A stretch of 64,000 nucleotides of DNA from contig NC_092674.1 of NCBI RefSeq assembly GCF_964355755.1, forward strand, positions 8,625,001-8,689,000, read 5' to 3'. Made by a program: the position numbers and the translations under genes. The stretch is from Antedon mediterranea (Eukaryota > Echinodermata > Crinoidea > Comatulida > Antedonidae). Within the stretch, counting starts at the first letter, position 1, and each line of letters opens with the position of its first letter. This document shows, piece by piece, positions 22,991 to 48,079 of this stretch. The notes below the pieces were generated by a model. It made no database searches, was not told the origin of the DNA, and worked only from the letters and a program-made list of their open reading frames with translations.

Positions 22991-25900
22991 ATGAACATGG
23001 AGTCCTCCACTGTTACGATGTCGCTGTGTTTGTTGTTTACTTTTTGCTGTTTATTTCTAATTTCTTCGGCTGCACCACAAAAAGCTTTGTACAAATTAGA
23101 TGATTCTTGGCCATTAAATACATCAGTATTTACTGGGCAGGTTTACAGTGTCGATATTGATGAGAAAGCTGGAGAAATATATGTTTCACAGGTGAGTTAT
23201 TTGACTTTCCCAGACTAGGCTAGACTCTACTACTAGGCCTAGGCCTAGGCCTAGTAGGACGCTAGTTCCGTTTCGCACCTGTCATTTATTTCGACTCAAA
23301 ATGGGTTAAGAAACTTTATCGTGAGTACCACACCTTAAAATTAGGCCTCAAAAATACTTTTAGGAAGGAGATCACACAAAAAGTGACAAATAAATGCTTT
23401 AAATTGATGAATTTACAGACGTGTTTCTCGCACATCGGTTCGTCAATTTCGCATACGCCATGTTCAATGTTGTTGTTTCTATGGAGCGCCAAAAGAGCCT
23501 CAATTTTAATATATTTTGCCAATGTCAATGCAACAAAAATGTTACTGTTGATACCCTACATGATTTTAAAATCGACAAATTCATCATCCATATACATGCA
23601 TGTACTGTAGTTTTTATACCTCAAATGATCTAAATAATATTCCTCTTAGTCTCAGGCCTAGGCTAGGTACCCCTAGGGTTTTGTTGCATTGACATTGACA
23701 AAATATATTAAAATTGAACGTAATTTTCACCAATAAATGCATTAAATATACGCATTATATTGAGTTTTTAGCCCTCTATTATGATTGCTCTTTTGGCGCT
23801 CCATAGAAACAACAACATTGAACATGGCGTATGCAAAATTGACGAACCGATGTGCGAGAAACACGTCTGTAAATTCATCAATTTAAAGCATTTATTTGTC
23901 ACTTTTTGTGTGATCTCCTTCGTAAAAGTATTTTTGAGGCCTAATTCTAAGGTGTGGTACTCACGATAAAGTTTCTTAACACATTTTGAGTCGAAATAAA
24001 TGACAGGTGCGAAACGGAACTAGCGCCCCTAGTAGTAGAGAAAGAGTGAGTAGTCCTTCTAGGCCGAGTAAAAGAGTGGTGTTTATTATTACGTGGATGC
24101 CTTAAAACCTTCCTCTCCCCCGCTGGTGGACAGTTGCTTATATGGAAAGACTGCACATTGTCAGTAGACAGACATTGCAATTATTTTTCTGCACTACCTA
24201 ATCATTAAAACTGTAATTGGGCGCTAGTGTGTAAGTGCCCGTCTTAATATTATATAACATCTCAAAAATAAATAAAATAATTGTTAGCCAGTCCCAGTTT
24301 GTATTTATAATTTGGTTAAATTCCTAGCCTTAGGTAGGGGTGTCACGAAAGCTCAGACCACGAAAGCTCAGACCCCCTAAGACCTAAGATCACGAAAGCT
24401 AAGACACAAAAGCGCCGTGAAGTTGGTTACTTATTCCTTATTCGACATTCGTCAATGGAAGTTGGTTCCTTATTCGACGTTCGACATTCGCTAGGCTAGG
24501 CCAAAATTTCGAAAATGATAATTTCCCAGCGGTAAATATGCCGTGCGCCACCAACCAATCTCCTGCTGTTACTTATTCCCTATTCGACATTCATTCTTGA
24601 AGTTGGTTCCTTATTCGACGATCGCTAGGCCGCGGCCGACCGGCTGGCCCAAATTCGTACCAAAGTAGACCTAGTGTAGATGTACCTATTTTATCACAGA
24701 TTTACATTTTTTAGTTCCGATATTACGACCATACCAACGCCTCGGGCCGGGTTCACAATAGTATAGATTGACGTAGTATGGTCCTGGAATTCCAGAAATG
24801 TGCCACTTGCCCCGACCCAGATCGGGCAAGTACGGATTTTAAAGCAATTTAAAATGCGTATTTTTAGCATTAATTTAGTAAACACCACTTTTAAAGTGGC
24901 CATATGACCACACACCGACGCCTCGCGTCGGGTACACAATAGTATAGATTGACGTAGTATGGTCCTGGCATTCCAGAAATGTGCCACCTGCCCCGGCCCA
25001 GTGCGGGCAAGTACGTGTTTTAAAGCAATTTCAAATGCGTATTTTTAGCAAAAATTTACTAAGAATTAATAGCACCACTTTTAAAGTGGCCATATGACCA
25101 CACCTCGACGCCTCAGGTCGGGTTCACAATAGTATAGATTGATGTAGAATGGTCCTGGCATTCCATAAATGTGCCACTTGCCCCGGCCCAGTGCGGGCAA
25201 GTAAGTGTTTAAAAGCAATTTCAAATGCGTATTTTTAGCATTAATTTACAAAGAATTAATAGCACCACATTTAAAGTGGCCATATGACCACACCCCGACG
25301 CCTCGGGCCGGGAACACAATAGTATAGATTGACGTAGTATGGTCCTGGCATTCCAGAAATATGCCACTTGCCCAGGCCCAGTGCGGGCAAGTACGGATTT
25401 AAAAGCAATTTAAAATGCGTATTTTTAGCATTAATTTAGTAAACACCACTTTTAAAGTGGCCATATGACCACACCCCGACGCCTCGGGCCGGGTATACAA
25501 TAGTATAGATTGACGTAGTATGGTCCTGACTTTCCAGAAATGTGCCACTTGCCCCGGCCCAGTGCGGGCAAGTACGTGTTTAATAGCAATTTCAAATGCG
25601 TATTTTTAGCATTAATTTACCAAGAATTAATAGCACCACTTTTAAAGTGGCCATATGACCACACCCCAACGCCTCGGGCCGGGAACACAATAGTATAGAT
25701 TGACGTAGAATGGTCCTGGCATTCCAGAAATGTGCCACTTGCCCCGGCCCAGTGCGGACAAGTACGGATTTTAAAGCAATTTAAAATGCGTATTTTTAGC
25801 ATTAATTTAGTAAACACCACTTTTAAAGTGGCCATATGACCACACCCCGACGCCTCGGGCCGGGTACACAATAGTATAGATTGACTTAGTATGGTCCTGG

Positions 25901-28900
25901 CTTTCCAGAAATGTGCCACTTGCCCCGGCCCAGTGCGGGCAAGTACGTGTTTAAAAGCAATTTCAAATGCGTATTTTTAGCATTAATTTACTAAGAATTA
26001 ATAGCACCACATTTAAAGTGGCCATATGACCACACCCCGACGCCTCGGGCCGGGAACACAATAGTATAGATTAACGTAGTATGGTCCTGGCATTCCAGAA
26101 ATATGCCACTTGCCCCGGCCCAGTGCGGGCAAGTACGGATTTTAAAGCAATTTAAAATGCGTATTTTTAGCATTAATTTAGTAATCACCACTTTTAAAGT
26201 GGCCATATGACCACACCCCGACGCCTCGGGCCGGGTACACAATAGTATATATTGACGTAGTATGGTCCTGGCTTTCCAGAAATGTGCCACTTGCCCCGGC
26301 CCATGCGGGCAAGTACGGATTTTAAAGCAATTTGAAATGCGTGTTTTTAGTGTTATTTTACTAAGTATTAATAGCACCACTTTTAAAGTGGCAATATGAC
26401 CACACCCCGACGCCTCGGACCGGATTCACAATAGTATGGATTGACGTAGAATGGTCCGGACATTCCAGAAATGTGCCACTTGCCTCGGCCTAGTGCGGGC
26501 AAGTACGTGTTTTAAAGCAATTTAAAATGCGTATTTGTAGTGTTATTTTACTAAGTATTAATAGCACCACTTTTAAAGTGGCCATATGACCACACCCCGA
26601 CGCCTCGGGCCGGGTACACAATAATATAGGTTGACGTAGTATGGTCCTGGCATTCCAGAAATGTGCCACTTTCCCCGGCCCAGTGCGGGCAAGTACGGGT
26701 TTTAAAGCAATTTCAAATGCGTATTTTTAGCATTAATTTACTAAGAATTAATAGCACCACATTTAAAGTGGCCATATGACCACACCCCGACGCCTCGGGC
26801 CGGGAACACAATAGTATAGATTGACGTAGTATGGTCCTGGCATTCCAGAAATATGCCACTTGCCCAGGCCCCCAGTGCGGGCAAGTACGGATTTTAAAGC
26901 AATTTAAAATGCGTATTTTTAGCATTAATTTAGTAAACACCACTTTTAAAGTGGCCATATGACCACACCCCGACGCCTCGGGCCGGGTACACAATAGTAT
27001 AGATTGACGTAGTATGGTCCTGACTTTCCAGAAATGTGCCACTTGCCCCGGCCCAGTGCGGGCAAGTACGTGTTTAAAAGCAATTTCAAATGCGTATTTT
27101 TAGCATTAATTTACTAAGAATTAATAGCACCACTTTTAAAGTGGCCATATGACCACACACCGACGCCTCGGGCCGGGAACAAAATAGTATAGATTGACGT
27201 AGAATGGTCCTGGCATTCCAGAAATGTGCCACTTGCCCCGGCCCAATGCGGGCAAGTACGGATTTTAAAGCAATTTAAAATGCGTATTTTTAGCATTAAT
27301 TTAGTAAACACCACTTTTAAAGTGGCCATTATGACCACACACCGACGCCTCGGGTCGGGTTCACGATAGTATAGATTGACGTAGTATGGTCCTGGCATTG
27401 ATCCAGAAATGTACCACTTGCCCCGGCCTGGTGCGGGCAAGTACGTGTTTTAAAGCAATTTAAAATGCGTATTTTTAGTGTTATTTTACTAAGTATTAAT
27501 AGCACCACTTTTAAAGTGGCCATATGACCACACCCCGACGCCTCGGACCGGGTACATAATAGTATAGATTGACGTAGTATGGTCCTGGCTTTCCAGAAAT
27601 GTGCCACTTGCCCCGGCCCAGTGCGGGCAAGTACGGGTTTTAAAGCAATTTAAAATGCGTATTTTTAGTGTTATTTTACTAAGTATTAATAGCACCACTT
27701 TTAAAGTGGCCATATGACCACACCCCGACGCCTCGGGCCGGGTACACAATAATATAGATTGACGTAGTATGGTCCTGGCATTCCAGAAATGTGCCACTTG
27801 CCCCGGCCCAGTGCGGGCAAGTACGGGTTTTAAAGCAATTTAAAATGCGTATTTTTAGTGTTATTTTACTAAGTATTAAAAGCACCACTTTTAAAGTGGC
27901 AATATGACCACACCCCGACGCCTCGGGCCGGGTACACAATAGTATAGATTGACGTACAGTAGTATGGTCCTGACTTTCCAGAAATGTGCCACTTGCCCCG
28001 GTCCAGTGCGGGCAAGTACGTGTTTAAAAGCAATTTCAAATGCGTATTTTTAGCATTAATTTACTAAGAATTAATAGCACAACTTTTAAAGTGGCCATAT
28101 GACCACACCCCAACGCCTCGGGCCGGGAACACAATAGTATAGATTGACGTAGAATGGTCCTGGCATTCCAGAAATGTGCCACTTGCCCCGGCCCAGTGCG
28201 GGCAAGTACGGATTTTAAAGCAATTTAAAATGCGTATTTTTAGCATTAATTTAGTAAACACCACTTTTAAAGTGGCCATATGACCACACCCCGACGCCTC
28301 GGGCCGGGTACACAATAGTATAGATTGACTTAGTATGGTCCTGGCTTTCCAGAAATGTGCCACTTGCCCCGGCCCAGTGCGGGCAAGTACGTGTTTAAAA
28401 GCAATTTCAAATGCGTATTTTTAGCATTAATTTACTAAGAATTAATAGCACCACATTTAAAGTGGCCATATGACCACACCCCGACGCCTCGGGCCGGGTA
28501 CACAATAGTATAGATTAACGTAGTATGGGCCTGGCTTTCCAGAAATGTGCCACTTGCCCCGGCCCAGTGCGGGCAAGTACGGATTTTAAAGCAATTTGAA
28601 ATGCGTGTTTTTAGTGTTATTTTACTAAGTATTAATAGCACCACTTTTAAAGTGGTAATATGACCACACCCCGACGCCTCGGACCGGATTCACAATAGTA
28701 TGGATTGACGTAGAATGGTCCGGACATTCCAGAAATGTGCCACTTGCCCCGGCCCAGTGCGGGCAAGTACGTGTTTTAAAGCAATTTAAAATGCGTATTT
28801 TTAGTGTTATTTTACTAAGTATTAATAGCACCACTTTTAAAGTGGCCATATGACCACACCCCGACGCATCGGGCCGGGTACACAATAATATAGGTTGACG

Positions 28901-31900
28901 TAGTATGGTCCTGGCATTCCAGAAATGTGCCACTTTCCCCGGCCCAGTGCGGGCAAGTACGGGTTTTAAAGCAATTTCAAATGCGTATTTTTAGCATTAA
29001 TTTACTAAGAATTAATAGCACCACATTTAAAGTGGCCATATGACCACACCCCGACGCCTCGGGCCGGGAACACAATAGTATAGATTGACGTATTATGGTC
29101 CTGGCATTCCAGAAATATGCCACTTGCCCAAGCCCAGTGCGGGCAAGTACGGATTTTAAAGCAATTTAAAATGCGTATTTTTAGCATTAATTTAGTAAAC
29201 ACCACTTTTAAAGTGGCCATATGACCACACCCCGACGCCTCGGGCCGGGTACACAATAGTATAGATTGACGTAGTATGGTCCTGACTTTCCAGAAATGTG
29301 CCACTTGCCCCGGCCCAGTGCGGGCAAGTACGTGTTTAAAAGCAATTTCAAATGCGTATTTTTAGCATTAATTTACTAAGAATTAATAGCACCACTTTTA
29401 AAGTGGCCATATGACCACACCCCAACGCCTCGGGCCGGGAACAAAATAGTATAGATTGACGTAGAATGGTCCTGGCATTCCAGAAATGTGCCACTTGCCC
29501 CGGCCCAGTGCGGGCAAGTACGGATTTTAAAGCAATTTAAAATGCGTATTTTTAGCATTAATTTAGTAAACACCACTTTTAAAGTGGCCATTATGACCAC
29601 ACACCGACGCCTCGGGTCAGGTTCACGATAGTATAGATTGACGTAGTATGGTCCTGGCATTGATCCAGAAATGTACCACTTGCCCCGGCCTGGTGCGGGC
29701 AAGTACGTGTTTTAAAGCAATTTAAAATGCGTATTTTTAGTGTTATTTTACTAAGTATTAATAGCACCACTTTTAAAGTGGCCATATGACCACACCCCGA
29801 CGCCTCGGACCGGGTAGATTATAGTATAGATTGACGTAGTATGGTCCTGGCTTTCCAGAAATGTGCCACTTGCCCCGGCCCAGTGCGGGCAAGTACGGGT
29901 TTTAAAGCAATTTAAAATGCGTATTTTTAGTGTTATTTTACTAAGTATTAATAGCACCACTTTTAAAGTGGCCATATGACCAAACCCCGACGCCTCGGGC
30001 CGGGTACACAATAATATAGATTGACGTAGTATGGTCCTGGCATTCCAGAAATGTGCCACTTGCCCCGGCCCAGTGCGGGCAAGTACGGGTTTTAAAGCAA
30101 TTTAAAATGCGTATTTTTAGTGTTATTTTACTAAGTATTAAAAGCACCACTTTTAAAGTGGCAATATGACCACACCCCGACGCCTCGGGCCGGGTACACA
30201 ATAGTATAGATTGACGTAGTATTGTCCTGGCTTTCCAGAAATGTGCCACTTGCCCCGGCCCAGTGCGGGCAAGTACGGATTTTAAAGCAATTTAAAATGC
30301 GTATTTTTAGCAATAATTTAGTAAACACCACTTTTAAAGTGGCCATATGACCACACCCCGACGCCTCGGGTCGGGTTCACAATAGTATAGATTGATGTAG
30401 AATGGTCCTGGCATTCCACAAATGTGCCACTTGCCCCGGCCCAGTGCGGGCAAGTACGTATTTAAAAGCAATTTCAAATGCGTATTTTTAGCATTAATTT
30501 ACTAAGAATTAATAGCACCACATTTAAAGTGGCCATAATATGACCACACCCCGGCCCCTCGGGCCGGGTACACAATAGTATAGATTGACGTAGTACTGTC
30601 CTGGCATTCCAGAAATATGCCACTTGCCCCGGCCCAGTGCGGGCAAGTATGGATTTTAAAGCAATATAAAATGCGTATTTTTAGCATTTTTAGTAAACAC
30701 AACTTTTAAAGTGGCCATATGACCACACCCCGACGCCTCGGACCGGGTACACAATAGTATAGATTGACGTAGTATGGTCCTGGCATTCCAGAAATGTGCC
30801 ACTTGCCCCGGCCCAGTGTGGGCAAGTAGGGGTTTTAAAGCAATTTAAAATGCGTCTTTTTAGTGTTATTTTACTAAGTATTATAATAGCACCACTTTTA
30901 AAGTGGCCGTATGACCACACCCCAACGCCTCAGGTCGGGTACACAATAGTATAGATTGACGTAGTAGTGTCCTGGCTTTCCAGAAATGTGCCACTTGCCC
31001 CGGCCCAGTGCGGGCAAGTACGGATTTTAAAGCAATTTAAAATGCGTATTTTTAGCATTAATTTAGTAAACACCACTTTTAAAGTGGCCATATAACCACA
31101 CCCCGACGCCCCGGATCGGGTTCACAATAGTATAGATTGATGTAGAATGGTCCTGGCATTCCATAAATGTGCCACTTGCCCCGGCCCAGTGTTGGCAAGT
31201 ACGTGTTTTAAAGCAATTTAAAATGCGTATTTTTAGCATTAATTTACTAAGAATTAATGGCACCACATTTAAAGTGGCCATATGACCACACCCCGACGCC
31301 TCGGGCCGGGTACACAATAATATAGATTGGCGTAGTATGGTCCTGGCATTCCAGAAATGTTCCACTTGCCCCGGCCCAGTGCGGGCAAGTACGAATTTTA
31401 TAGCAATTTAAAATGCGTATTTTTAGCATTAATTTAGTAAACACCACTTTTAAACTGTCCATTATGACCACACACCGACGCCTAGGGTCGGGTTCACGAT
31501 AGTATAGATTGACGTAGTATGGTCCTGGCATTCCAGAAATGTACCACTTGCCCCGGCCTGGTGCGGGCGAGTACGTGTTTTAAAGCAATTTAAAATGCGT
31601 ATTTTTAGTGTTTTTTACTAAGTATTAATAGCACCACTTTTAAAGTGGCAATATGACCACACCCCGACGCCTCGGGCCGGGTTCACAATAGTATAGATTG
31701 ACGTAGTATGGTCCTGGCATTCCATAAATGTGCCACTTGCCCCGGCCCAGTGCGGGCAAGTACGTGTTTTAAAGCACTTTAAAGTGTTTCTGGAAAGTCA
31801 GGACCATACTACGTCAATCTATACTATTGTGTACCCGGCCCGAGGCGTCGGGGTGTGGTCATATGGCCACTTTAAAAGTGGCGTTTACTAAATTAATGCT

Positions 31901-34900
31901 AAAAATACGCATTTTAAATAGCTTTAAAACACGTACTTGCCCGCACTGGTCCGGGGCAAGTGGCACATTTCTGGAATTTCAGGACCATTCTACGTCAATC
32001 CATACTATTGTGAACCCGGCGCGAGGCGTCGGGGTGTGGTCATATTGCCACTTTAAAAGTAGTGCTGTTAATACTTAGTTAAAAAAACACTAAATATACG
32101 CATTTTAAATTGCTTTTAAACACGTACTTGCCCGCACTGGGCCGGGGCAAGTGGCACGTTTATGGAATGCCAGGACCATTCTACATCAACAATCTATACT
32201 ATTGTGAACCCGACCCAAGGCGTCGGGGTGTGGTCATATGGCCACTTTAAAAGTGGTGTTTACTAAATTAATGCTAAAAATACGCATTTTAAATTGCTTT
32301 AAAATCCGTACTTGCCCGCACTGGGCCGGGGCAAGTGGCACATTTCTGGAAAGCCAGGACCATACTGCGTCAATCTATACTATTGTGTACCCGGCCCGAG
32401 GCGTCGGGGTGTGGTCATATGGCCACTTTAAAAGTGGTGCTATTAATACTTAGTAAAATAACACTAAAAATAAGCATTTTAAATTGCTTTAAAACACGTA
32501 CTGGCCCGCACTGGGCCGGGGCAAGTGGCACATTTCTAGAAAGTCTGGACCTTTCTACGTCAATCCATACTATTGTGAACCCGGCCCGAGGCGTCGGGGT
32601 GTGGTCATATTGCCACTTTAAAAGTGGTGCTATTAATACTTAGTAAAATAACACTAAAAATACGCATTTTAAATTGCTTTAAAACACGTACTTGCCCGCA
32701 CCAGGCCGGGGCAAGTGGTACATTTCTGGATCAATGCCAGGACCATACTACGTCAATCTATACTATCGTGAACCCGACCCGAGGCGTCGGTGTGTGGTCA
32801 TAATGGCCACTTTAAAAGTGGTGTTTACTAAATTAATGCTAAAAATACGCATTTTAAATTGCTTTAAAATCCGTACTTGCTCGCACTGGGCCGGGGCAAG
32901 TGGCACATTTCTGGAAAGCCAGGACCATACTACGTCAATCTATACTATTGTGTACCCGGCCCGAGGCGTCGGGGTGTGGTCAGATCATATGGCCACTTTA
33001 AAAGTGGTGTTTACTAAATTAATGCTAAAAATACGCATTTTAAATTGCTTTAAAATCCGTACTTGCTCGCACTGGGCCGGGGCAAGTGGCATATTTCTGG
33101 AATGCCAGGACCATACTACGTCAATCTATACTATTGTGTTCCCGGCCCGAGGCGTCGGGGTGTGGTCATATGGCCACTTTAAATGTGGTGCTATTAATTC
33201 TTAGTAAATTAATGCTAAAAATACGCATTTGAAATTGCTTTTAAACACTTACTTGCCCGCACTGGGCCGGGGCAAGTGGCACATTTATGGAATGCCAGGA
33301 CCATTCTACATCAATCTATACTATTGTGAACCCGACCCGAGGCGTCGGGGTGTGGTCATATGGCCACTTTAAAAGTGGTGCTATTAATTCTTAGTAAATT
33401 TTTGCTAAAAATACGCATTTGAAATTGCTTTAAAATAACGTACTTCCACGCACTGGGCCGGGGCAGGTGGCACATTTCTGGAATGTCAGGACCATACTAC
33501 GTCAATCTATACTATTGTGTACCCGGCCCGATGCGTCGGGGTGTGGTCATATGGCCACTTTAAAAGTGGTGTTTACTAAATTAATGCCAAAAATACGCAT
33601 TTTAAATTGCTTTAAAATCCGTACTCGCCCGCACTGGGCCGGGGCAAGTGGCACATTTCTGGAAAGCCAGGACCATACTACGTCAATCTATACTATTGTG
33701 TACCCGGCCCGAGGCGTCGGGGTGCGGTCATATTGCCACTTTAAAAGTGGTGCTATTAATACTTAGTAAAATAACACTAAAAATACGCATTTTAAATTGC
33801 TTTAAAACCCGTACTTGCCCGCACTGGGCCGGGCAAAGTGGCACATTTCTGGAATGCCAGGACCATACTACGTCAATCTATATTATTGTGTACCCGGCCC
33901 GAGGCGTCGGGGTGTGGTCATATTGCCACTTTAAAAGTGGTGCTATTAATACTTAGTAAAATAACATTAAAAATACGCATTTTAAATTGCTTTAAAACAC
34001 GTACTTGCCCGCACTGGGCCGGGGCAAGTGGCACATTTCTGGAATGTCCGGACCAGTCTACGTCAATCCACACTATTGTGAATCCGGCCCGAGGCGTCGG
34101 GGTGTGGTCATATTGCCACTTTAAAAGTGGTGCTATTAATACTTAGTAAAATAACACTAAAAACACGCATTTTAAATTGCTTTAAAATCCGTACTTGCCC
34201 ACACTGGGCCGGGGCAAGTGGCACATTTCTGGAAAGCCAGGACCATACTACGTCAATCTATACTATTGTGTACCCGGCCCGAGGCGTCGGGGTGTGGTCA
34301 GATCATATGGCCACTTTAAAAGTGGTGTTTACTAAATTAATGCTAAAAATACGCATTTTAAATTGCTTTAAAATCCGTACTTGCCCGCACTGGGCCGGGG
34401 CAAGTGGCATATTTCTGGAATGCCAGGACCATACTACGTTAATCTATACTATTGTGTTCCCGGCCCGAGGCGTCGGGGTGTGGTCATATGGCCACTTTAA
34501 ATGTGGTGCTATTAATTCTTAGTAAATTAATGCTAAAAATACGCATTTGAAATTGCTTTTAAACACGTACTTGCCCGCACTGGGCCGGGGCAAGTGGCAC
34601 ATTTCTGGAAAGCCAGGACCATACTAAGTCAATCTATACTATTGTGTACCCGGCCCGACGCGTCGGGGTGTGGTCATATGGCCACTTTAAAAGTGGTGTT
34701 TACTAAATTAATGCTAAAAATACGCATTTTAAATTGCTTTAAAATCCGTACATGCCCGCACTGGGCCGGGGCAAGTGGCACATTTCTGGAATGCCAGGAC
34801 CATTCTACGTCAATCTATACTATTGTGTTCCCGGCCCGAGGCGTTGGGGTGTGGTCATATGGCCACTTTAAAAGTGGTGCTATTAATTCTTAGTAAATTA

Positions 34901-37900
34901 ATGCTAAAAATACGCATTTGAAATTGCTTTTAAACACGTACTTGCCCGCACTGGGCCGGGGCAAGTGGCACATTTCTGGAAAGTCAGGACCATACTACGT
35001 CAATCTATACTATTGTGTACCCGGCCCGAGGCGTCGGGGTGTGATCATATGGCCACTTTAAAAGTGGTGTTTACTAAATTAATGCCAAAAATACGCATTT
35101 TAAATTGCTTTAAAATCCGTACTCGCCCGCACTGGGCCGGGGCAAGTGGCACATTTCTGGAAAACAAGGACCATACTACGTCAATCTATACTATTGTGTA
35201 CCCGGCCCGAGGCGTCGGGGTGCGGTCATATTGCCACTTTAAAAGTGGTGCTATTAATACTTAGTAAAATAACACTAAAAATACGCATTATAAATTGCTT
35301 TAAAACCCGTACTTGCCCGCACTGGGCCGGGGAAAGTGGCACATTTCTGGAATGCCAGGACCATACTACGTCAACCTATATTATTGTGTACCCGGCCCGA
35401 GGCGTCGGGGTGTGGTCATATGGCCACTTTAAAAGTGGTGCTATTAATACTTAGTAAAATAACACTAAAAATACGCATTTGAAATTGCTTTTAAACACGT
35501 ACTTGCCCGCACTGGGCCGGGGCAAGTGGCACATTTCTGGAAAGTCAGGACCATACTACGTCAATCTATACTATTGTGAATCCGGCCCGAGGCGTCGGGG
35601 TGTGGTCATATTGCCACTTTAAAAGTGGTGCTATTAATACTTAGTAAAATAACACTAAAAACACGCATTTTAAATTGCTTTAAAACACGTACTTGCCCGC
35701 ACTGGGCCGGGGCAAGTGGCACATTTCTGGAATGTCCGGACCATTCTACGTCAATCCATACTATTGTGAATCCGGTCCGAGGCGTCGGGGTGTGGTCATA
35801 TTGCCACTTTAAAAGTGGTGCTATTAATACTTAGTAAAATAACATTAAAAATACGCATTTTAAATTGCTTTAAAATCCGTACTTGCCCGCACTGGGCCGG
35901 GGCAAGTGGCATATTTCTGGAATGCCAGGACCATACTACGTCAATCTATACTATTGTGTTCCCGGCCCGAGGCGTCGGGGTGTGGTCATATGGCCACTTT
36001 AAATGTGGTGCTATTAATTCTTAGTAAATTAATGTGTTTACTAAATTAATGCTAAAAATACGCATTTTAAATTGCTTTAAAATCCGTACTTGCCCGCACT
36101 GGGCCGGGGCAAGTGGCATGTTTCTGGAATGCCAGGACCATACTACGTTAATCTATACTATTGTGTTCCCGGCCCGAGGCGTCGGGGTGTGGTCATATGG
36201 CCACTTTAAATGTGGTGCTATTAATTCTTAGTAAATTAATGCTAAAAATACGCATTTGAAATTGCTTTTAAACACGTACTTGCCCGCACTGGGCCGCGGC
36301 AAGTGGCACATTTCTGGAAAGCCAGGACCATACTAAGTCAATCTATACTATTGTGTACCCGGCCCGACGCGTCGGGGTGTGGTCATATGGCCACTTTAAA
36401 AGTGGTGTTTACTAAATTAATGCTAAAAATACGCATTTTAAATTGCTTTAAAATCCGTACATGCCCGCACTGGGCCGGGGCAAGTGGCACATTTCTGGAA
36501 TGCCAGGACCATTCTACGTCAATCTATACTATTGTGTTCCCGGCCCGAGGCGTTGGGGTGTGGTCATATGGCCACTTTAAAAGTGGTGCTATTAATTCTT
36601 AGTAAATTAATGCTAAAAATACGCATTTGAAATTGCTTTTAAACACGTACTTGCCCGCACTGGGCCGGGGCAAGTGGCACATTTCTGGAAAGTCAGGACC
36701 ATACTACGTCAATCTATACTATTGTGTACCCGGCCCGAGGCGTCGGGGTGTGATCATATGGCCACTTTAAAAGTGGTGTTTACTAAATTAATGCCAAAAA
36801 TACGCATTTTAAATTGCTTTAAAATCCGTACTCGCCCGCACTGGGCCGGGGCAAGTGGCACATTTCTGGAAAACAAGGACCATACTACGTCAATCTATAC
36901 TATTGTGTACCCGGCCCGAGGCGTCGGGGTGCGGTCATATTGCCACTTTAAAAGTGGTGCTATTAATACTTAGTAAAATAACACTAAAAATACGCATTAT
37001 AAATTGCTTTAAAACCCGTACTTGCCCGCACTGGGCCGGGGAAAGTGGCACATTTCTGGAATGCCAGGACCATACTACGTCAACCTATATTATTGTGTAC
37101 CCGGCCCGAGGCGTCGGGGTGTGGTCATATGGCCACTTTAAAAGTGGTGCTATTAATACTTAGTAAAATAACACTAAAAATACGCATTTGAAATTGCTTT
37201 TAAACACTTACTTGCCCGCACTGGGCCGGGGCAAGTGGCACATTTCTGGAAAGTCAGGACCATACTACGTCAATCTATACTATTGTGAATCCGGCCCGAG
37301 GCGTCGGGGTGTGGTCATATTGCCACTTTAAAAGTGGTGCTATTAATACTTAGTAAAATAACACTAAAAACACGCATTTTAAATTGCTTTAAAACACGTA
37401 CTTGCCCGCACTGGGCCGGGGCAAGTGGCACATTTCTGGAATGTCCGGACCATTCTACGTCAATCCATACTATTGTGAATCCGGTCCGAGGCGTCGGGGT
37501 GTGGTCATATTGCCACTTTAAAAGTGGTGCTATTAATACTTAGTAAAATAACATTAAAAATACGCATTTTAAATTGCTTTAAAATCCGTACTTGCCCGCA
37601 CTGGGCCGGGGCAAGTGGCATATTTTTGGAATGCCAGGACCATACTACGTCAATCTATACTATTGTGTTCCCGGCCCGAGGCGTCGGGGTGTGGTCATAT
37701 GGCCACTTTAAATGTGGTGCTATTAATTCTTAGTAAATTAATGTGTTTACTAAATTAATGCTAAAAATACGCATTTTAAATTGCTTTAAAATCCGTACTT
37801 GCCCGCACTGGGCCGGGGCAAGTGGCATATTTCTGAAATGCCAGGACCATACTACGTCAATCTATACTATTGTGTTCCCGGCCCGAGGCGTCGGGGTGTG

Positions 37901-40900
37901 GTCATATGGCCACTTTAAATGTGGTGCTATTAATTCTTAGTCAATTAATGCTAAAAATACGCATTTGAAATTGCTTTTAAACACGTACTTGTCCGCACTG
38001 AGCCGGGGCAAGTGGCACATTTCTGGAAAGCCAGGACCATACTACGTCAATCTATACTAATGTGTACCCGGCCCGAGGCGTCGGGGTGTGGTCATATGGC
38101 CACTTTAAAAGTGGTGTTTACTAAATTAATGCTAAAAATACGCATTTTAAATTGCTTTAAAATCCGTACTTGCTCGCACTGGGCCGGGGCAAGTGGCATA
38201 TTTATGGAATGCCAGGACCATACTACGTCAATCTATACTATTGTGTTCCCGGCCCGAGGCGTCGGGGTGTGGTCATATGGCCACTTTAAATGTGGTGCTA
38301 TTAATTCTTAGTAAATTAATGCTAAAAATACGCATTTGAAATTGCTTTTAAACACTTACTTGCCCGCACTGGGCCGGGGCAAGTGGCACATTTATGGAAT
38401 GCCAGGACCATTCTACATCAATCTATACTATTGTGAACCCGACCCGAGGCGTCGGGGTGTGGTCATATGGCCACTTTAAAAGTGGTGCTATTAATTCTTA
38501 GTAAATTTTTGCTAAAAATACGCATTTGAAATTGCTTTAAAATCCGTACTTGCCCGCACTGGGCCGGGGCAAGTGGCATATTTCTGAAATGCCAGGACCA
38601 TACTACGTCAATCTATACTATTGTGTTCCCGGCCCGAGGCGTCGGGGTGTGGTCATATGGCCACTTTAAATGTGGTGCTATTAATTCTTAGTAAATTAAT
38701 GCTAAAAATACGCATTTGAAATTGCTTTTAAACACGTACTTGTCCGCACTGAGCCGGGGCAAGTGGCACATTTCTGGAAAGCCAGGACCATACTACGTCA
38801 ATCTATACTAATGTGTACCCGGCCCGAGGCGTCGGGGTGTGGTCATATGGCCACTTTAAAAGTGGTGTTTACTAAATTAATGCTAAAAATACGCATTTTA
38901 AATTGCTTTAAAATCCGTACTTGCTCGCACTGGGCCGGGGCAAGTGGCATATTTATGGAATGCCAGGACCATACTACGTCAATCTATACTATTGTGTTCC
39001 CGGCCCGAGGCGTCGGGGTGTGGTCATATGGCCACTTTAAATGTGGTGCTATTAATTCTTAGTAAATTAATGCTAAAAATACGCATTTGAAATTGCTTTT
39101 AAACACTTACTTGCCCGCACTGGGCCGGGGCAAGTGGCACATTTATGGAATGCCAGGACCATTCTACATCAATCTATACTATTGTGAACCCGACCCGAGG
39201 CGTCGGGGTGTGGTCATATGGCCACTTTAAAAGTGGTGCTATTAATTCTTAGTAAATTTTTGCTAAAAATACGCATTTGAAATTGCTTTAAAATAACGTA
39301 CTTCCACGCACTGGGCCGGAGCAGGTGGCACATTTCTGGAATGTCAGGACCATACTACGTCAATCTATACTATTGTGTACCCGGCCCGATGCGTCGGGGT
39401 GTGGTCATATGGCCACTTTAAAAGTGGTGTTTACTAAATTAATGCCAAAAATACGCATTTTAAATTGCTTTAAAATCCGTACTCGCCCGCACTGGGCCGG
39501 GGCAAGTGGCACATTTCTGGAAAGCCAGGACCATACTACGTCAATCTATACTATTGTGTACCCGGCCCGAGGCGTCGGGGTGCGGTCATATTGCCACTTT
39601 AAAAGTGGTGCTATTAATACTTAGTAAAATAACACTAAAAATACGCATTTTAAATTGCTTTAAAACCCGTACTTGCCCGCACTGGGCCGGGCAAAGTGGC
39701 ACATTTCTGGAATGCCAGGACCATACTACGTCAATCTATATTATTGTGTACCCGGCCCGAGGCGTCGGGGTGTGGTCATATGGCCACTTTAAAAGTGGTG
39801 CTATTAATACTTAGTAAAATAACATTAAAAATACGCATTTTAAATTGCTTTAAAACACGTACTTGCCCGCACTGGGCCGGGGCAAGTGGCACATTTCTGG
39901 AATGTCCGGACCATTCTACGTCAATCCACACTATTGTGAATCCGGCCCGAGGCGTCGGGTGTGGTCATATTGCCACTTTAAAAGTGGTGCTATTAATACT
40001 TAGTAAAATAACACTAAAAACACGCATTTTAAATTGCTTTAAAATCCGTACTTGCCCGCACTGGGCCGGGGCAAGTGGCACATTTCTGGAAAGCCAGGAC
40101 CATACTACGTCAATCTATACTATTGTGTACCCGGCCCGAGGCGTCGGGGTGTGGTCAGATCATATGGCCACTTTAAAAGTGGTGTTTACTAAATTAATGC
40201 TAAAAATACGCATTTTAAATTGCTTTAAAATCCGTACTTGCCCGCACTGGGCCGGGGCAAGTGGCATATTTCTGGAATGCCAGGACCATACTACGTTAAT
40301 CTATACTATTGTGTTCCCGGCCCGAGGCGTCGGGGTGTGGTCATATGGCCACTTTAAATGTGGTGCTATTAATTCTTAGTAAATTAATGCTAAAAATACG
40401 CATTTGAAATTGCTTTTAAACACGTACTTGCCCGCACTGGGCCGGGGCAAGTGGCACATTTCTGGAAAGCCAGGACCATACTAAGTCAATCTATACTATT
40501 GTGTACCCGGCCCGACGCGTCGGGGTGTGGTCATATGGCCACTTTAAAAGTGGTGTTTACTAAATTAATGCTAAAAATACGCATTTTAAATTGCTTTAAA
40601 ATCCGTACATGCCCGCACTGGGCCGGGGCAAGTGGCACATTTCTGGAATGCCAGGACCATTCTACGTCAATCTATACTATTGTGTTCCCGGCCCGAGGCG
40701 TTGGGGTGTGGTCATATGGCCACTTTAAAAGTGGTGCTATTAATTCTTAGTAAATTAATGCTAAAAATACGCATTTGAAATTGCTTTTAAACACGTACTT
40801 GCCCGCACTGGGCCGGGGCAAGTGGCACATTTCTGGAAAGTCAGGACCATACTACGTCAATCTATACTATTGTGTACCCGGCCCGAGGCGTCGGGGTGTG

Positions 40901-43900
40901 ATCATATGGCCACTTTAAAAGTGGTGTTTACTAAATTAATGCCAAAAATACGCATTTTAAATTGCTTTAAAATCCGTACTCGCCTGCACTGGGCCGGGGC
41001 AAGTGGCACATTTCTGGAAAACAAGGACCATACTACGTCAATCTATACTATTGTGTACCCGGCCCGAGGCGTCGGGGTGCGGTCATATTGCCACTTTAAA
41101 AGTGGTGCTATTAATACTTAGTAAAATAACACTAAAAATACGCATTTTAAATTGCTTTAAAACCCGTACTTGCCCGCACTGGGCCGGGGAAAGTGGCACA
41201 TTTCTGGAATGCCAGGACCATACTACGTCAACCTATATTATTGTGTACCCGGCCCGAGGCGTCGGGGTGTGGTCATATGGCCACTTTAAAAGTGGTGCTA
41301 TTAATACTTAGTAAAATAACACTAAAAATACGCATTTGAAATTGCTTTTAAACACGTACTTGCCCGCACTGGGCCGGGGCAAGTGGCACATTTCTGGAAA
41401 GTCATGACCATACTACGTCAATCTATACTATTGTGAATCCGGCCCGAGGCGTCGGGGTGTGATCATATTGCCACTTTAAAAGTGGTGCTATTAATACTTA
41501 GTAAAATAACACTAAAAACACGCATTTTAAATTGCTTTAAAACACGTACTTGCCCGCACTGGGCCGGGGCAAGTGGCACATTTCTGGAATTTCCGGACCA
41601 TTCTACGTCAATCCATACTATTGTGAATCCGGCCCGAGGCGTCGGGGTGTGGTCATATTGCCACTTTAAAAGTGGTGCTATTAATACTTAGTAAAATAAC
41701 ACTAAAAACACGCATTTCAAATTGCTTTAAAATCCGTACTTGCCCGCACTGGGCCGGGGCAAGTGGCACATTTCTGGAAAGCCAGGACCATACTACGTCA
41801 ATCTATACTATTGTGTACCCGGCCCGAGGCGTCGGGGTGTGGTCATATGGCCACTTTAAAAGTGGTGTTTACTAAATTAATGCTAAAAATACGCATTTTA
41901 AATTGCTTTAAAATCCGTACTTGCCCGCACTGGGCCGGGGCAAGTGGCATATTTCTGGAATGCCAGGACCATACTACGTTAATCTATACTATTGTGTTCC
42001 CGGCCCGAGGCGTCGGGGTGTGGTCATATGGCAACTTTAAATGTGGTGCTATTAATTCTTAGTAAATTAATGCTAAAAATACGCATTTGAAATTGCTTTT
42101 AAACACGTACTTGCCCGCACTGGGCCGGGGCAAGTGGCACATTTCTGGAAAGCCAGGACCATACTAAGTCAATCTATACTATTGTGTACCCGGCCCGAGG
42201 CGTCGGGGTGTGGTCATATGGCCACTTTAAAAGTGGTGTTTACTAAATTAATGCTAAAAATACGCATTTTAAATTGCTTTAAAATCCGTACTTGCCCGCA
42301 CTGGGCCTGGGCAAGTGGCACATTTCTGGAATGCCAGGACCATTCTACGTCAATCTATACTATTGTGTTCCCGGCCCGAGGCGTTGGGGTGTGGTTATAT
42401 GGCCACTTTAAAAGTGGTGCTATTAATTCTTAGTAAATTAATGCTAAAAATACGCATTTGAAATTGCTTTTAAACACGTACTTTCCCGCACTGGGCCGGG
42501 GCAAGTGGCACATTTCTGGAAAGTCAGGACCATACTACGTCAATCTATACTATTGTGTACCCGGCCCGAGGCGTCGGGGTGTGGTCATATGGCCACTTTA
42601 AAAGTGGTGTTTACTAAATTAATGCTAAAAATACGCATTTTAAATTGCTTTAAAATCCGTACTTGCCGGCACTGGGCCGGGGCAAGTGGCATATTTCTGG
42701 AATGCCAGGACCATACTACGTCAATCTATACTATTGTGTTCCCGGCCCGAGGCGTCGGGGTGTGGTCATATGGCCACTTTAAATGTGGTGCTATTAATTC
42801 TTAGTAAATTAATGCTAAAAATACGCATTTGAAATTGCTTTAAAATACGTACTTGCCCGCACTGGGCCGGGGCAAGTGGCACATTTCTGGAATGCCAGGA
42901 CCATTCTACGTCAATCTATACTATTGTGTTCCCGGCCCGAGGCGTTGGGGTGTGGTCATATGGCCACTTTAAAAGTGGTGCTATTAATTCTTAGTAAATT
43001 AATGCTAAAAATACGCATTTGAAATTGCTTTTAAACACGTACTTTCCCGCACTGGGCCGGGGCAAGTGGCACATTTCTGGAAAGTCAGGACCATACTACG
43101 TCAATCTATACTATTTTGTACCCGGCCCGAGGCGTCGTGGTGTGGTCATATGGCCACTTTAAAAGTGGTGTTTACTAAATTAATGTTAAAAATATGCATT
43201 TTAAATTGCTTTAAAATCCGTACTTGCCGGCACTGGGCCGGGGCAAGTGGCATATTTCTGGAATGCCAGGACCATAATACGTCAATCTATACTATTGTGT
43301 TCCCGGCCCGAGGCGTCGGGGTGTGGTCATATGGCCACTTTAAATGTGGTGCTATTAATTCTTAGTAAATTAATGCTAAAAATACGCATTTGAAATTGCT
43401 TTTAAACACTTACTTGCCCGCACTGGGCCGGGGCAAGTGGCACATTTATGGAATGCCAGGACCATTCTACATCAATCTATACTATTGTGAACCCGACCTG
43501 AGGCGTCGGGGTGTGGTTATATGGCCACTTTAAAAGTGGTGCTATTAATTCTTAGTAAATTTTTGCTAAAAATACGCATTTGAATATTGCTTTAAAACAC
43601 GTACTTTTGCACGCACTGGGCCGAGGCAGGTGGCACATTTCTGGAATGCCAGGACCATACTACGTCAATCTATACTATTGAGTACCCGGCCCGATGCGTC
43701 GGGGTGTGGTCATATGGCCACTTTAAAAGTGGTGTTTACTAAATTAATGCCAAAAATACGCATTTTAAATTGCTTTAAAATCCGTACTTGCCCGCACTGG
43801 GCCGGGGCAAGTGGCACATTTCTGGAAAGCCAGGACCATACTACGTCAATCTATACTATTGTGTACCCGGCGGCCGGCCCGAGACGTCGGGGTGTGGTCA

Positions 43901-46900
43901 TATTGCCACTTTAAAAGTGGTGCTATTAATACTTAGTAAAATAACACTAAAAATACGCATTTTAAATTGCTTTAAAACCCGTACTTGCCCGCACTGTGCC
44001 GGGGCAAGTGGCACATTTCTGGAATGCCAGGACCATACTACGTCAATCTATATTATTGTGTACCCGGCCCGAGGCGTCGTGGTGTGGTCATATGGCCACT
44101 TTAAAAGTGGTGCTATTAATTCTTAGTAAATTATTGCTAAAAATACGCATTTGAAATTGCTTTAAAACACGTACTTGCCCGCACTGGGCCGGGGCAGGTG
44201 GCACATTTCTGGAATGCCAGGACCATACTACGTCAATCTATACTATTGTGTACCCGACGCGAGGCGTCGGTGTGTGGTCATATGGCCACTTTAAAAGTGG
44301 TGTTTACTAAATTAATGCTAAAAATACGCATTTTAAATTGCTTTAAAATCCGTACTTGCCCGATCTGGGTCGGGGCAAGTGGCACATTTCTGGAATTCCA
44401 GGACCATACTACGTCAATCTATACTATTGTGAACCCGGCCCGAGGCGTTGGTATGGTCGTAATATCGGAACTAAAAAATGTAAATCTGTGATAAAATAGG
44501 TACATCTACACTAGGTCTACTTTGGTACGAATTTGGGCCAGCCGGTCGGCCGCGGCCTAGCGAACGTCGAATAAGGAACCAACTTCACGAATGAATGTCG
44601 AATAGGGAATAAGTAACAGCAGGAGATTGGTTGGTGGCGCACGGCATATTTACCGCTGGGAAATTATCATTTTCGAAATTTTGGCCTAGCCTAGCGAATG
44701 TCGAACGTCGAATAAGGAACCAACTTCCATTGACGAATGTCGAATAAGGAATAAGTAACCAACTTCACGGCGCTAGACCCAACACCTAAGATTACAAATA
44801 CTAAGATATACTACAGCTTAAAAACAATACTTGTTTATCCATACATAATTTTAAACACAGTAGGTTTCATTTATTACCATAAATATAATTTAATACTACC
44901 GCAAAACATAGATAAACTCACATTATTTTCGCCCGTTGAGTAAATGTATATTTTTTCTTTACAACAAACAAACTTGACGGGTTGTTTGTTGGTATATATT
45001 TACTCCATTGTGTTGCTTCAGAGGATGTTTTTCTTCCTTTCTTGTATTTTGACTCCAAATTTGTTGACTAACTTTATCCTGAACACCACACTTTAAAATT
45101 AGGACTTATAAGTACTTTCAGAAGGAGAAACACATAATAACAAATAAATAAATCCTTTAAATTGATGATTTTACAGATGTGTTTCTTTGTATACTGTAAT
45201 GACAATGTAACTCCTCGAGCTCGGCCCCCCCCATGCTCAATGTTTTTGTTTCTATGGAGCGCCAAAAGAGCAACAATAATAGTACAAGTATAAAAACAGA
45301 AAGAAAACGAAACAAAAAAACTTATCATGATTTTTAAATTAAAATTTATTTGCCAGTATTTATTTCTTCGTACTTGCATGATTATACTATTATCATTACA
45401 ATTTTAATTTTACATTGTTCCATCCACACTGTAGATGGACTCCACAGAGTTTTCAGCCCTCTATATAATTTTTGCTCTTTTGACGTTCCATAGAAACAAA
45501 AACATTGAACATGGCCCATGGGGTAGGCCTACTGTCCTGTAGGCTAGTCATTTTGTGTGCGAGAAAAACGTCTGTAAAATCTTCAATTTAAAAATGTATT
45601 TGTTACTTTTTATGTGATTCTTTTTCATGAAAGTGCCAATTCTAAGGTGTGGTATTCAGAATAATTGTTGGGAGTTAAAATACAAGGCAGGTGCGAAAGA
45701 TAAATATTTGTAATCTTAGGTGTTGGGTCTTAGCTTTCGTGATCTTAGGTCTTAGGGGGTCTGAGCTTTCGTGGTCTGAGCTTTCGTGACACCCCCTTAG
45801 GTAGAGTACAGTCCACCCTTTAATTTACTAAATTACTAAATCAAATAATATTACTGTTTTTGTTTTAATTCATCAATAGTAAAACCTTTTCATTTACTAA
45901 AAAAATTAAATTTTTCTGTAGAGGGGTGTTAAATTTCATCCTATTGTAGTATTCTCTGAAGATGGACATCTGAAACGAGTGCTGACCTTTGATACGTCAG
46001 TTGTGAGCATGATCCATGGTCTACGAGTCTTTCAAAACGTAACGTCAGGTCAAACCAGTGTGTGGGTGACAGATCTTGGAAATGGTAAACGTTTGCAGAA
46101 AGTGTTGATTAAACCCAAGGATAGTGTTGGACCAAGGCAATCCTAACAACAGGATGCTGAGCTCCGGAGATCAAAGAGTTTATCTGTGGCTGCGACACGA
46201 TCTGTTCCACGCCCCTTAACAGACACAGCGCGCCATGAAGAAGCAGCCAGACATAAGATCAAAGGACTGTTAGGAGTTCCTATCTTGACAAGTCGAGCTC
46301 AGTGTCCTGTTGTTAGATTGCCTTGATTGACTGCTCTCTTAGGATGTACTGCTCTGTTTGGGGATGTATGCAAAACATTTTTAATTAAATTTTAGTATCA
46401 ATGAACAGTGAAAAAAATGTTTTCCCTTTCATCTCTCATTGTCCCCCATTTACTGTACCACACACTGACAAATATGGCTTTTATTTCACCAGAAGTAAAC
46501 AATTTTGTATATGTGTGTATAAAATACTTGTGCATTCACTGTTTTTTGTACTACTTTAAACTTTATTGCCTGTTTTCAATTCTACAGCTACATATGGACA
46601 TACAGTGAAGGGGTTTTCCCCTGAAGGTAAACTTGAGACTATGATTGGAACAGCAGGGACGGCAGGAACAGGTCTAGCCCCAGTACAGTTTGATCATGTT
46701 GCTGATTTGGCCTTCAATGAGAAGGGGGAGATGTACATTGTAGATGGAGACGGTGGTAGTAATAATAGGCTAATTAAACTGTCTAAAGGTAATTACAAAA
46801 ATTGAGTTCAACTTCCACTAATAAGATTATTACTGTATACAAATACCGATGATGAGTAGAACAGGCAGAATATAATTTCATGATTTGAAAGACTGATTGA

Positions 46901-48079
46901 CTGTTCTATTCAAATAGACCAGTACATTTTTCAATGAATGAAAAATAATACAGGTTAGTTGTTTTTTGAATGCGCAAAGATAACAGAAAACAAAAATAAA
47001 CAACGTAATAGCCGCTATGAATGTTTACCAATTCAAAACAATTGAGTTAACCACTCAGCAGTGTTCAGCCATATATTATTATATTATCATTATTTTCTAG
47101 ATTTCAAACTGATGTGGCACGTTGGTGGACCAAACAGTACTAAAGATGGCTACTTTGATGTACCGCATAGTGTTGAGCTTGACGAGCACAATCGTGTCTG
47201 GGTCGCTGACCGCATGAACGGTAGACTTCAAGCTTTTGATGCGGACACTGGCAAATTCCTGGGAAAGTGGACAAGTTGTTTTTCAACTGGGCAACCATAT
47301 TCTGTCAGGTTAGTGACACATTGGCACCGTGTATTCAGAGCATATAAAGCGAGCGGTTAAGACAATGGAACCGTAATTAAGTAGCCATAACATCGACAAG
47401 GGTTCAAGGCTCACTTACTCCGTGGCTCTGGTGGTAGAACAAGTCTTCTCGGATAAAGACTATAAACCATAGGTCCAGTGTACACATCTAGCTAATCTAG
47501 CTAATTTCCCTCTGGGAAACCAGTCTTTGACTAAAATGGTTACCTGGTATAGGTATAAATAAATAACACATTCAAAAAAATTGTAATCAATATTAATAAT
47601 TGAATGGTTTATATAGTTTTTACATGATTTTTTTACTAATACTATCGATGAAAAAAATGTTTGCATGTATGTATAGTTATAAAACAAATAAAGTTGATTT
47701 GATATAAAACCAAATCAACAGTCAAGTTATAAGTGAATATGCTTTGTACATGGATTTATTTTTAATATATTACTTGTAGATAGCTTGTAAAATTTATATA
47801 AACCATTTCTTTTTCAGAATCAGTAAAGATAAGACGCATTTTATCGTTGCACTACTGAATGAAAGCAAAATACTTTTGGTTGCTACCCCACCGAATGCTG
47901 GTGCAATCGGAGAATGTGTTGTATTAGATACAATTACACTACCTCAAAACACAGCACCACATCTCGTCGGAGTAAACAACAAATCTGGAGTGTTTTACGT
48001 GGCGGAGTTAAAAACTCACACATGTCAAAAGTTTGTACCTATTGAACGAAAGAAAAACAAAATATATAATGATTTGTAA
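22991..48079 (+). CDS. NHLRC3: NHL repeat-containing protein 3, five coding exons
   Basis: Coding exons are 22991-23191, 45922-46084, 46588-46788, 47101-47308 and 47818-48079. All introns are GT-AG and the sum (1,035 nt) reads through as 344 residues, close to human NHLRC3 (about 347). Residues 1-28 form a signal peptide (hydrophobic LCLLFTFCCLFLI, then SSAA). Conserved blocks follow: ALYKLDDSWP, VDGDGGSNNRLIKLS, the NHL motif PHSVELDEHNRVWVADR, and a GECVVLDTI-PHLVGV C-terminus. Four N-glycosylation sequons (NTS, NVT, NST, NES) fit the secretory route. NHL repeats build a beta-propeller; the molecular role of NHLRC3 is poorly known. Intron 1 is 22.7 kb, filled mostly by the element at 24338-45794; introns 2 and 4 hold a MITE and a SINE. 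No break in the frame is seen. Confidence 0.95.
23258..24027. mobile_element. fold-back element with ~240-bp TIRs, 770 bp
   Basis: The left arm (23258 to about 23495) and right arm (about 23790-24027) are near-identical inverted copies, beginning GACGCTAGTTCCG and ending CGGAACTAGCGCC. CCTAGTAG flanks both sides (23250-23257 and 24028-24035), an 8-bp target duplication. The short open frames in the two arms mirror each other and are not genes. A diverged relative is nested in the right end of the giant element at 44774-45727. It lies in NHLRC3 intron 1. Confidence 0.85.
24036..24327. other. NHLRC3 intron 1 between two elements
   Basis: Unremarkable intron sequence between the 770-bp fold-back element and the giant element. 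Nothing recognisable inside. Confidence 0.5.
24338..24722 (+). repeat. left TIR of the giant element (non-satellite part)
   Basis: It begins with three copies of CACGAAAGCTCAGAC (24344, 24359 and, as CACGAAAGCTAAGAC, 24391). Further in, TTATTCGACATTCGT / GAAGTTGGTTCCTTATTCGA words repeat in two blocks. The mirror sequence is at 44463-44773 and 45728-45794. Confidence 0.85.
24723..31785 (-). repeat. satellite array, left arm (~181/190-bp monomers)
   Basis: Monomers of about 181 bp (with TTTAGTAAACACCACTTTT) and 190 bp (with CTAAGAATTAATAGCACCAC or CTAAGTATTAATAGCACCAC) alternate irregularly, often as 371-bp dimers; length suggests about 38 units. Each unit contains GCCATATGACCACACCCCGA, TAGTATAGATTGACGTAGTA and CCAGTGCGGGCAAGTACG. 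A higher-order duplication of about 2.26 kb pairs 27114-29375 with the block from 29376. Frames of roughly 100 codons recur because the period avoids stops; they are not genes. Confidence 0.95.
31786..44462 (+). repeat. satellite array, right arm (inverted to left arm)
   Basis: Same satellite in the opposite orientation, about 12.7 kb or some 68 units by length. Larger duplications are visible from shared private variants: 34594-36302 repeats at 36303-38011 (1,709 bp) and again in part from 40451; 38012-38762 repeats from 38763 (751 bp); the block from 33467 repeats from 39325 (5,858 bp). The changeover from the left arm, near 31775-31795, has no spacer and joins two monomers at different phases. 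Confidence 0.95.
44774..45727. mobile_element. fold-back element inserted in the right TIR
   Basis: Its ends are inverted copies: AGACCCAACACCTAAGATTA at the left and TAATCTTAGGTGTTGGGTCT at the right. Inside, 45080-45270 and 45460-45680 are inverted to each other and resemble the arms of the element at 23258-24027 (shared CTATGGAGCGCCAAAAGAGC). The left TIR at 24405 lacks this sequence, so it is a later insertion. The target duplication is unclear. Confidence 0.7.
46133..46325. mobile_element. MITE in NHLRC3 intron 2 (193 bp)
   Basis: CAAGGCAATCCTAACAACAG at the left pairs with the reverse complement of the right end (CTGTTGTTAGATTGCCTTG), one base indel; the arms continue to GAGCTC. TIRs are about 30 bp and the interior is non-coding. 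Target duplication not resolved. Confidence 0.75.
47330..47572 (+). mobile_element. tRNA-derived SINE in NHLRC3 intron 4
   Basis: The head contains AAAGCGAGCGGTTAAGAC, the A-box region of a class II (Leu/Ser type) tRNA, and a B box GGGTTCAAGGC 50 bp on. The body ends in TAAATAAATAAC. It begins about 20 bp after the donor of exon 4. Confidence 0.65.

Follow-up and report, generated by a model that had tools for sequence, protein, structure and literature searches.

Results

Two nested elements at the locus

The window analysed here is a 64,000-bp stretch of the genome of the crinoid Antedon mediterranea (NC_092674.1; C5:8625001-8689000 in the searched assembly, which comprises 354 Mb in 18 contigs). 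Inside an intron of an NHLRC3-like gene it carries two nested elements: a satellite-filled fold-back transposon of 20,364 bp (24411-44774) and a separate miniature inverted-repeat transposable element (MITE) of about 1 kb, into which the former is inserted. A sequence-only reading of the window had described a single 21.5-kb fold-back element at 24338-45794, whose long terminal inverted repeats (TIRs) would run into two opposed satellite arrays.

The outer layer of the nest belongs to the MITE. Its 10-bp target site duplication (TSD), CCTTAGGTAG, occupies 24328-24337 on the left and 45795-45804 on the right. Between these lie a left fragment at 24338-24410 (plus strand), with the tip GGGTGTCACGAAAG and 15-bp subterminal repeats, and the rest of the element at 44775-45794 (minus strand). 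The inverted tips announced by the sequence-only reading are present, with 98.6% identity over 73 bp (24337-24409 / 45795-45723), and the inner inverted repeats (24411-24880 / 44774-44305) match at 99.6% over 470 bp. The TIR is nevertheless not continuous on the right: between the 72-bp tip and the inner repeat lie about 950 bp that have no left counterpart and form part of the same 1-kb MITE as the outer tip.

The inner element, delimited by the tips AGCGCCGTGAAGTTGG and by comparison with the boundaries and TSDs of the two-ended copies described below, is flanked by 9-bp TSDs, AGACACAAA at 24402-24410 and AGACCCAAC at 44775-44783. It begins with a unique TIR end (AGCGCCGTGAAGTTGGTTACTTATTCC...; 24411-24733, plus strand) that contains an internal duplication of about 58 bp, and continues with a left satellite array of about 37 monomers of about 190/181 bp (24734-31783, plus strand, 7,050 bp). 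The head-to-head centre junction (31784-31786) leads without any spacer into the right array of about 67 monomers (31787-44448, minus strand, 12,662 bp), which shows recent internal segmental duplications, and the element closes with the right unique TIR end (44449-44774, minus strand). The two opposed arrays, described in the sequence-only reading as totalling nearly 20 kb, amount to 19.7 kb.

When the genome was searched with the 301 bp at the start of the previously proposed TIR, the matches fell into two separate sets (42 matches listed and 40 of 1,156 candidates scored, so that all counts are lower bounds). The first set, covering query positions 1-72, occurs at many places, several times as inverted pairs that mostly lie about 1 kb apart. 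The second, covering positions of about 69-301, forms inverted pairs at other places; its copies begin at AGCGCCGTGAAGTTGG, and the match to the other satellite copies sets in at about query position 69-74, not at the outer tip. The MITE tip and the satellite adjoin in the window because one family has inserted into the other.

The five MITE pairs that were fetched (L009-L013, all on C1) identify the outer element as a fold-back of about 1.08 kb. All contain the sequence of window 44775-45795 at 94-97.5% identity, with the same tips; four measure 1,078-1,090 bp and the fifth, with extra sequence, 3,133 bp. Perfect 10-bp TSDs flank all five, or six of six with the window copy, and since tips and TSD length are shared, CCTTAGGTAG is the duplication of the MITE: the flanking repeat of the sequence-only reading is real but belongs to another element. 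An exact 20-mer of the MITE tip had no match in the viral or the prokaryote sequence collection.

A single fold-back element ending in GGGTGTC would account for the tips and the CCTTAGGTAG duplication, both of which exist at the locus, but this model is hardly credible. Apart from the separation of the two match sets, the five fetched MITE copies are devoid of satellite, and no MITE lies within 1 kb on either side of six (B, C, E, F, G and H, labelled as below) of the remaining seven satellite-filled copies. Only copy D also lies in a MITE, which brings the number of such insertions to two among the eight satellite-filled elements, and it does so at a different MITE position. The target of the window copy, AGACCCAAC, and that of D, GATTTTACA, are unoccupied in all five other MITE copies. 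Empty sites, which the sequence-only reading had proposed to look for, thus exist, as paralogous MITE copies rather than alleles and with AGACCCAAC instead of CCTTAGGTAG as the satellite site.

A family of satellite-filled transposons

The window copy is designated A, seven other satellite-filled copies B-H, and further family members I, J, K, M and N. The lengths of A-H are 20,364, 15,928, 14,296, 7,783, 17,221, 18,053, 15,403 and 17,428 bp respectively, with inserted foreign sequence contributing 1.9 kb to D and 2.6 kb to H. All eight have the same layout of TIR, forward array, reverse array and TIR, with unique TIR ends of about 320 bp and arms of unequal length (in C, for instance, 1.6 kb against 12 kb, and in A 7.1 kb against 12.7 kb). 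The family has the characters of the fold-back class: TIR ends and opposed arrays make up the window copy as long inverted repeats, and the TSD has a constant length of 9 bp at independent sites, being perfect in nine of the ten two-ended copies (A-H, I and J) and in seven of eight among A-H. The proposal of a fold-back transposable element carrying a large satellite is borne out by these TSD-flanked copies.

Shorter copies, which the sequence-only reading had suggested looking for, exist in D and I. Copy I is 1.4 kb long with the TSD GTAGGACTA, and J is an older copy of 33.5 kb with CATAAAATG on both sides, TIRs at 88-92% and other transposons inside; the TSDs of I and J were read by eye. Copy N (C6:27395313) has lost its right end, and C6:14574816 is a 23-bp tip alone. 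A strongly diverged relative, L049 (C2:18826806), retains TIR pieces at 79-95% and one partial monomer (86% over 74 bp); no second end was found for it, and it is possibly a pre-satellite form of the element. The comparisons among A-H leave aside N for its lost end, I and J for their few or broken monomers, K, M and C2:18826806 for their diverged TIR pieces, and C6:14574816.

The family is of low copy number. The 16-mer of its tip, with at most one mismatch, occurs at 23 sites in the 354 Mb and the exact 12-mer at 25, and the controls (reversed for the 16-mer) gave none. Three new 12-mer sites (L058-L060) had no TIR similarity and were rejected as chance matches.

Satellite arrays and their internal order

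Satellite accounts for 19,712 of the 20,364 bp of A (about 97%). The monomers, mainly of 190 or 181 bp, are about 95% identical to the consensus and form long homogeneous head-to-tail arrays with a higher-order structure and Tandem Repeats Finder scores above 10,000. The open reading frames of the satellite gave four candidates for a protein probe, and none of these passed. Within A, the block R15-29 matches R46-60 at 0.4% divergence and L08-16 matches L20-28 at 1.2%, which on sequence grounds points to recent block duplication. The whole-arm BLAST identity (about 90%) mixes monomer registers and was discarded as a measure of the relationship of the arms, which is therefore based on monomer-level alignment. 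Arm-to-arm identity is 98-100% per 100 columns over the first 700 columns or so and lower beyond. Left and right monomers diverge by 10% on average, the nearest ones by 2-3%, and L03-L08 corresponds to R09-R14 at 1.3% over six monomers in a row, where shuffled orders of R give a longest run of 2.3 on average and of 4 at most in 500 shuffles.

A monomer search yielded 189 matches (25 candidate regions, 19 of them scored; a part of the matches listed, in which A-C and E-G do not appear). Six of those listed fall at C6:14.54-14.55 Mb, about 25 kb from a lone family tip, and all the others within D, H, I, J and N. The listed matches thus give no sign of large free satellite arrays in the assembled part of the genome, from which collapsed heterochromatin may escape. 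Of the earlier suggestion that the element "carries or became" a satellite, the first half stands; the second, in the sense of free-standing arrays, finds no support in the listed matches, which, these six apart, lie within family members.

Sister copies at unrelated sites

Three of the 28 pairs among A-H share their monomer order: at a distance d ≤ 0.02, 71/79 monomers are collinear in B/E, 49/71 in C/F and 15/25 in A/D, against at most 12/70 (17%, in A/G) in the other 25 pairs. The mean nearest-monomer distance is 0.002-0.003 for B/E, 0.006 for C/F and 0.010 from D to A, most other pairs falling at 0.021-0.040. Matched sister monomers accordingly differ by 0.2-0.6%, these distances being means over alignment-matched monomers only, which lean low. 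B and E lie on C7 and C8, C and F at two sites on C1, and neither pair shows flank similarity within 1 kb on each side; the flanks of A and D are alike as copies of the same MITE family. A blastn comparison of paired elements at 97% identity gave one row (A/G, TIR region) and none for the sister pairs, because the extensions crossed mixed registers.

B and E have no difference between their left arms (0/317) nor between their right arms (0/317), and the left arm of B differs from the right arm of E at 2/317 positions, as do the two arms of B from each other. The TIRs being identical arm by arm while the arms differ, the arm-specific variants have travelled together. In C and F, the left arm of C equals the right arm of F (0/326 differences) and the right arm of C the left arm of F (0/317). 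Across the centre junction, compared over 600 bp, identity reaches 99.0% for A/D (602 bp) and 99.7% for C/F, other matches giving 83-88%; the centre of N matches that of A at 300/300 bp and that of D at 98.3%. Read by eye, the letters give B and E the same centre apart from a deletion of 10 bp at the hairpin tip.

Distinct perfect TSDs, unrelated flanks and common arrays are the prediction of full-element transposition. A/D is weaker sister evidence, because D is much shorter and the matched monomers are about 1% apart. If short elements had transposed and their arrays had grown in place, as in the model proposed for the Tetris element of Drosophila virilis, array lengths would vary, as they do, blocks of 1-15 monomers having been gained or lost since the sisters split, and short-array copies would exist, as I (1.4 kb) and the older J do. 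Independent growth would not, however, reproduce the monomer order that B/E and C/F share for the most part at 0.2-0.6%, nor the centre that C/F share at 99.7%, and we consider it unlikely, even if G and H, which have no sister, may have grown in this way.

Quite unlikely, too, is the insertion of unrelated contents that gene conversion between loci would have overwritten later. Satellite arrays do homogenise, and the arms of the window copy share exact monomers (L06 = R12 and L14 = R62, for example), yet such a process would have had to replace about 16 kb on different chromosomes together with both arm-specific TIR variants, while sparing the other copies.

The transposase

The Mutator (MULE) superfamily has TSDs of 9-11 bp, and the 9-bp TSD of the satellite family lies in this range. 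It is also that of a MULE of the same genome, L054 (C10:21528600-21535600), which has a 637-amino-acid frame, perfect 81-bp TIRs (GCGAAATTTTTTTTACTCG) and the TSD ACCCCGGCC, read by eye; its tips differ from those of the satellite family. Because the 9-bp TSDs, the long TIRs and the fold-back form all fit, the satellite transposon is probably of Mutator-like origin. According to the authors of the Tetris paper, most fold-backs seem to belong to Mutator (PMC4079207).

Three loci were rejected as autonomous copies. K (C4:9685422) and M (C3:15912937) are both fragments within a shared larger repeat, and the open reading frames of N are those of a 13.8-kb insert distinct from the element and bounded by long inverted ends. 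This insert in the satellite array of N (C6:27398223-27412025; L048 from 3324, L056 to 1025) has perfect inverted ends of at least 577 bp, an apparent 6-bp duplication, CACCCC, and in its first 6.6 kb PC4-like and 2OG-Fe(II) oxygenase-like frames; it resembles Polinton/Maverick elements. As a separate observation, five MULE profile matches of equal score, each with a 651-amino-acid open frame (C2:1382286, C2:15352026, C3:9339044, C5:1627366 and C11:21020252), suggest a recently multiplied family.

Gene context and other features of the window

The intron that holds the nest spans 23192-45921 (22.7 kb), from a GT donor at 23191/23192 to the AG at 45921, after which the next exon begins. The translation of the upstream exon, whose frame ends at the GT donor, starts like a signal peptide as judged by eye. 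Four exon translations of the host gene were scanned: that of 47046-47360 matched the NHL repeat at 21.0 bits, just above the cut-off of 20, and the other three gave no profile match that exceeded it. The nest thus lies in an intron, as the sequence-only reading had it, and the gene is probably NHLRC3 by similarity.

The same intron holds, directly to the left of the nest, a small separate fold-back element (23251-24035; inverted ends of 249 bp at 97%), pieces of which match interior parts of the 1-kb MITE at 80-95%. Elsewhere in the window, nested inverted repeats at 49754-55295 (49754-50027 / 55022-55295, 97.8%; 50024-50315 / 53494-53788, 96.9%) are probably two more nested elements. Tandem arrays occupy 48126-49508 (25-bp unit, AAATACTGTACATGCATTACATGTA) and 18079-19154 (145/216-bp unit). 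A 5S ribosomal RNA match at 11642-11759 (79.8 bits) is the sole above-threshold Rfam match, and a frame of a non-LTR (long terminal repeat) retrotransposon has as its best match an Antedon mediterranea protein, with 85% identity over 78%.

Discussion

The model we propose for the window is that 24411-44774 is a non-autonomous satellite-filled fold-back transposon, whose arrays were inserted whole and subsequently altered by blocks; we estimate its probability at about 0.86. The element would belong to a low-copy family in which TIR ends of about 320 bp surround a pair of opposed 190/181-bp satellite arrays. The ends would be recognised by a trans-acting transposase, most likely one of the Mutator type, and the whole element, arrays included, would insert with the duplication of 9 bp of target. 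Copy A would have landed in this way in the 1-kb MITE inside the intron of the NHLRC3-like gene. After insertion, blocks of whole monomers would be duplicated or deleted, so that the arrays change in length, and sometimes the palindromic centre would be trimmed or re-formed. The model combines observed boundaries, TSDs, nesting, block indels and collinear sister arrays at unrelated sites with the proposal, to which the comparison of sister copies leads, that the full-length array was transposed rather than homogenised later.

Several points weigh against this model. The TSD of the window copy itself agrees at only 7/9 positions (AGACACAAA/AGACCCAAC). The flanks of B share a direct repeat of about 350 bp (90%), and pieces of 45-65 bp are common to the flanks of G and H. 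In the automatic junction comparison the only alignment between B and E was an inverted one, at 88%, so that the reading by eye is the basis for their shared centre. The sequences are also compatible with homogenisation between loci after insertion. An autonomous copy with a transposase, which the sequence-only reading had suggested as a check, was not found: no transposase with the family tips was detected, the nearest of 36 PF10551 matches being about 0.86 Mb from any of the 25 exact 12-mer tip sites. Nor does the family TIR occur in any of the three MULE loci read. Among these are one situated 20 kb from fragment K and the copy L053, one of the five matches with a 651-amino-acid frame, in which the 7 kb read contain no inverted ends. 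Finally, the copies are known from the assembly, in which palindromic arrays are prone to errors such as hairpin chimeras of long reads; an artefact of this kind is nonetheless very improbable, given that the two arms of each element are unequal both in sequence and in length (7,050 and 12,662 bp here) and that ten loci have distinct duplications.

Under the transposition of whole elements, the sister copies record what happens to an array afterwards. The long arms of B and E differ by blocks of +2, -2, +1, +10 and -4 monomers, and C and F differ by blocks of up to 15. As sisters differ in this block-wise manner against a monomer divergence of 0.2-0.6%, block change seems to outrun point mutation after insertion. 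Five centre types are found among A-H if B and E count as one, so that the centre has been trimmed or re-formed on more than one occasion. The block indels would stem from unequal exchange or from slippage during replication, and these processes, together with hairpin processing, are the likely cause of the changes in arrays and centre.

Long, internally repetitive TIRs are known from Galileo (P superfamily, with a 7-bp TSD), the Drosophila FB elements and sea urchin TU. Compared by description only, these share such TIRs with the crinoid family, and their repeats are far smaller. The closest precedent is Tetris, which is likewise non-autonomous, with a unique TIR end followed by tandem repeats and a similar TSD, a likeness in the way the two work. 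Tetris is a fold-back with an outer unique TIR domain and tandem repeats of about 220 bp (TIR-220), a TSD of 8-10 bp and no transposase found, assigned to Mutator by its authors (PMC4079207). Its repeats were amplified inside the element, related arrays reach 66 repeats, complete copies have TIRs of up to 1,735 bp with a middle domain between them, and larger arrays may, in the view of its authors, have disrupted transposition (PMC4079207). In contrast, the complete TSD-flanked crinoid elements hold about 25-100 monomers and lack a middle domain, one array directly adjoining the other, and copies that bear arrays appear to have moved. On the evidence of the crinoid family, arrays of about 70-90 monomers can move.

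Other parallels are more distant. Tm1 of root-knot nematodes, by its title a Mutator/Foldback family (PMC3169594), is an animal example of a fold-back placed in Mutator; its listed record makes no mention of satellite arrays. The MITE miDNA4 of Xenopus tropicalis (PMC9659126) and the oyster Helentrons CgHINE (PMC12628747) contain satellite-like arrays by which satellites may be spread or seeded; they belong to other superfamilies, and their arrays are described as internal or central and not as a head-to-head palindrome between long TIRs. In the one open-licence library searched we found no paper on an entire satellite array transposed with TSDs, and none that joins crinoid, satellite DNA and transposable elements.

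In conclusion, it is likely that Antedon mediterranea harbours a transposon family that is almost wholly satellite and still mobile at 14-18 kb, in which complete higher-order arrays are mobile units that disperse along chromosomes and their length does not stop transposition in the manner proposed for Tetris. That transposons seed satellites is known, whereas the travel of large arrays by transposition is mostly proposed in the literature read. Sister pairs with perfect TSDs and collinear arrays make array turnover measurable against nucleotide divergence, each pair being a clock that starts from one array. The family also provides a test of the size and the degree of palindromy that a transposon can reach without losing its mobility, and suggests how satellite arrays could come to be scattered near genes. 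If whole arrays are cargo, satellite DNA can spread by jumping.

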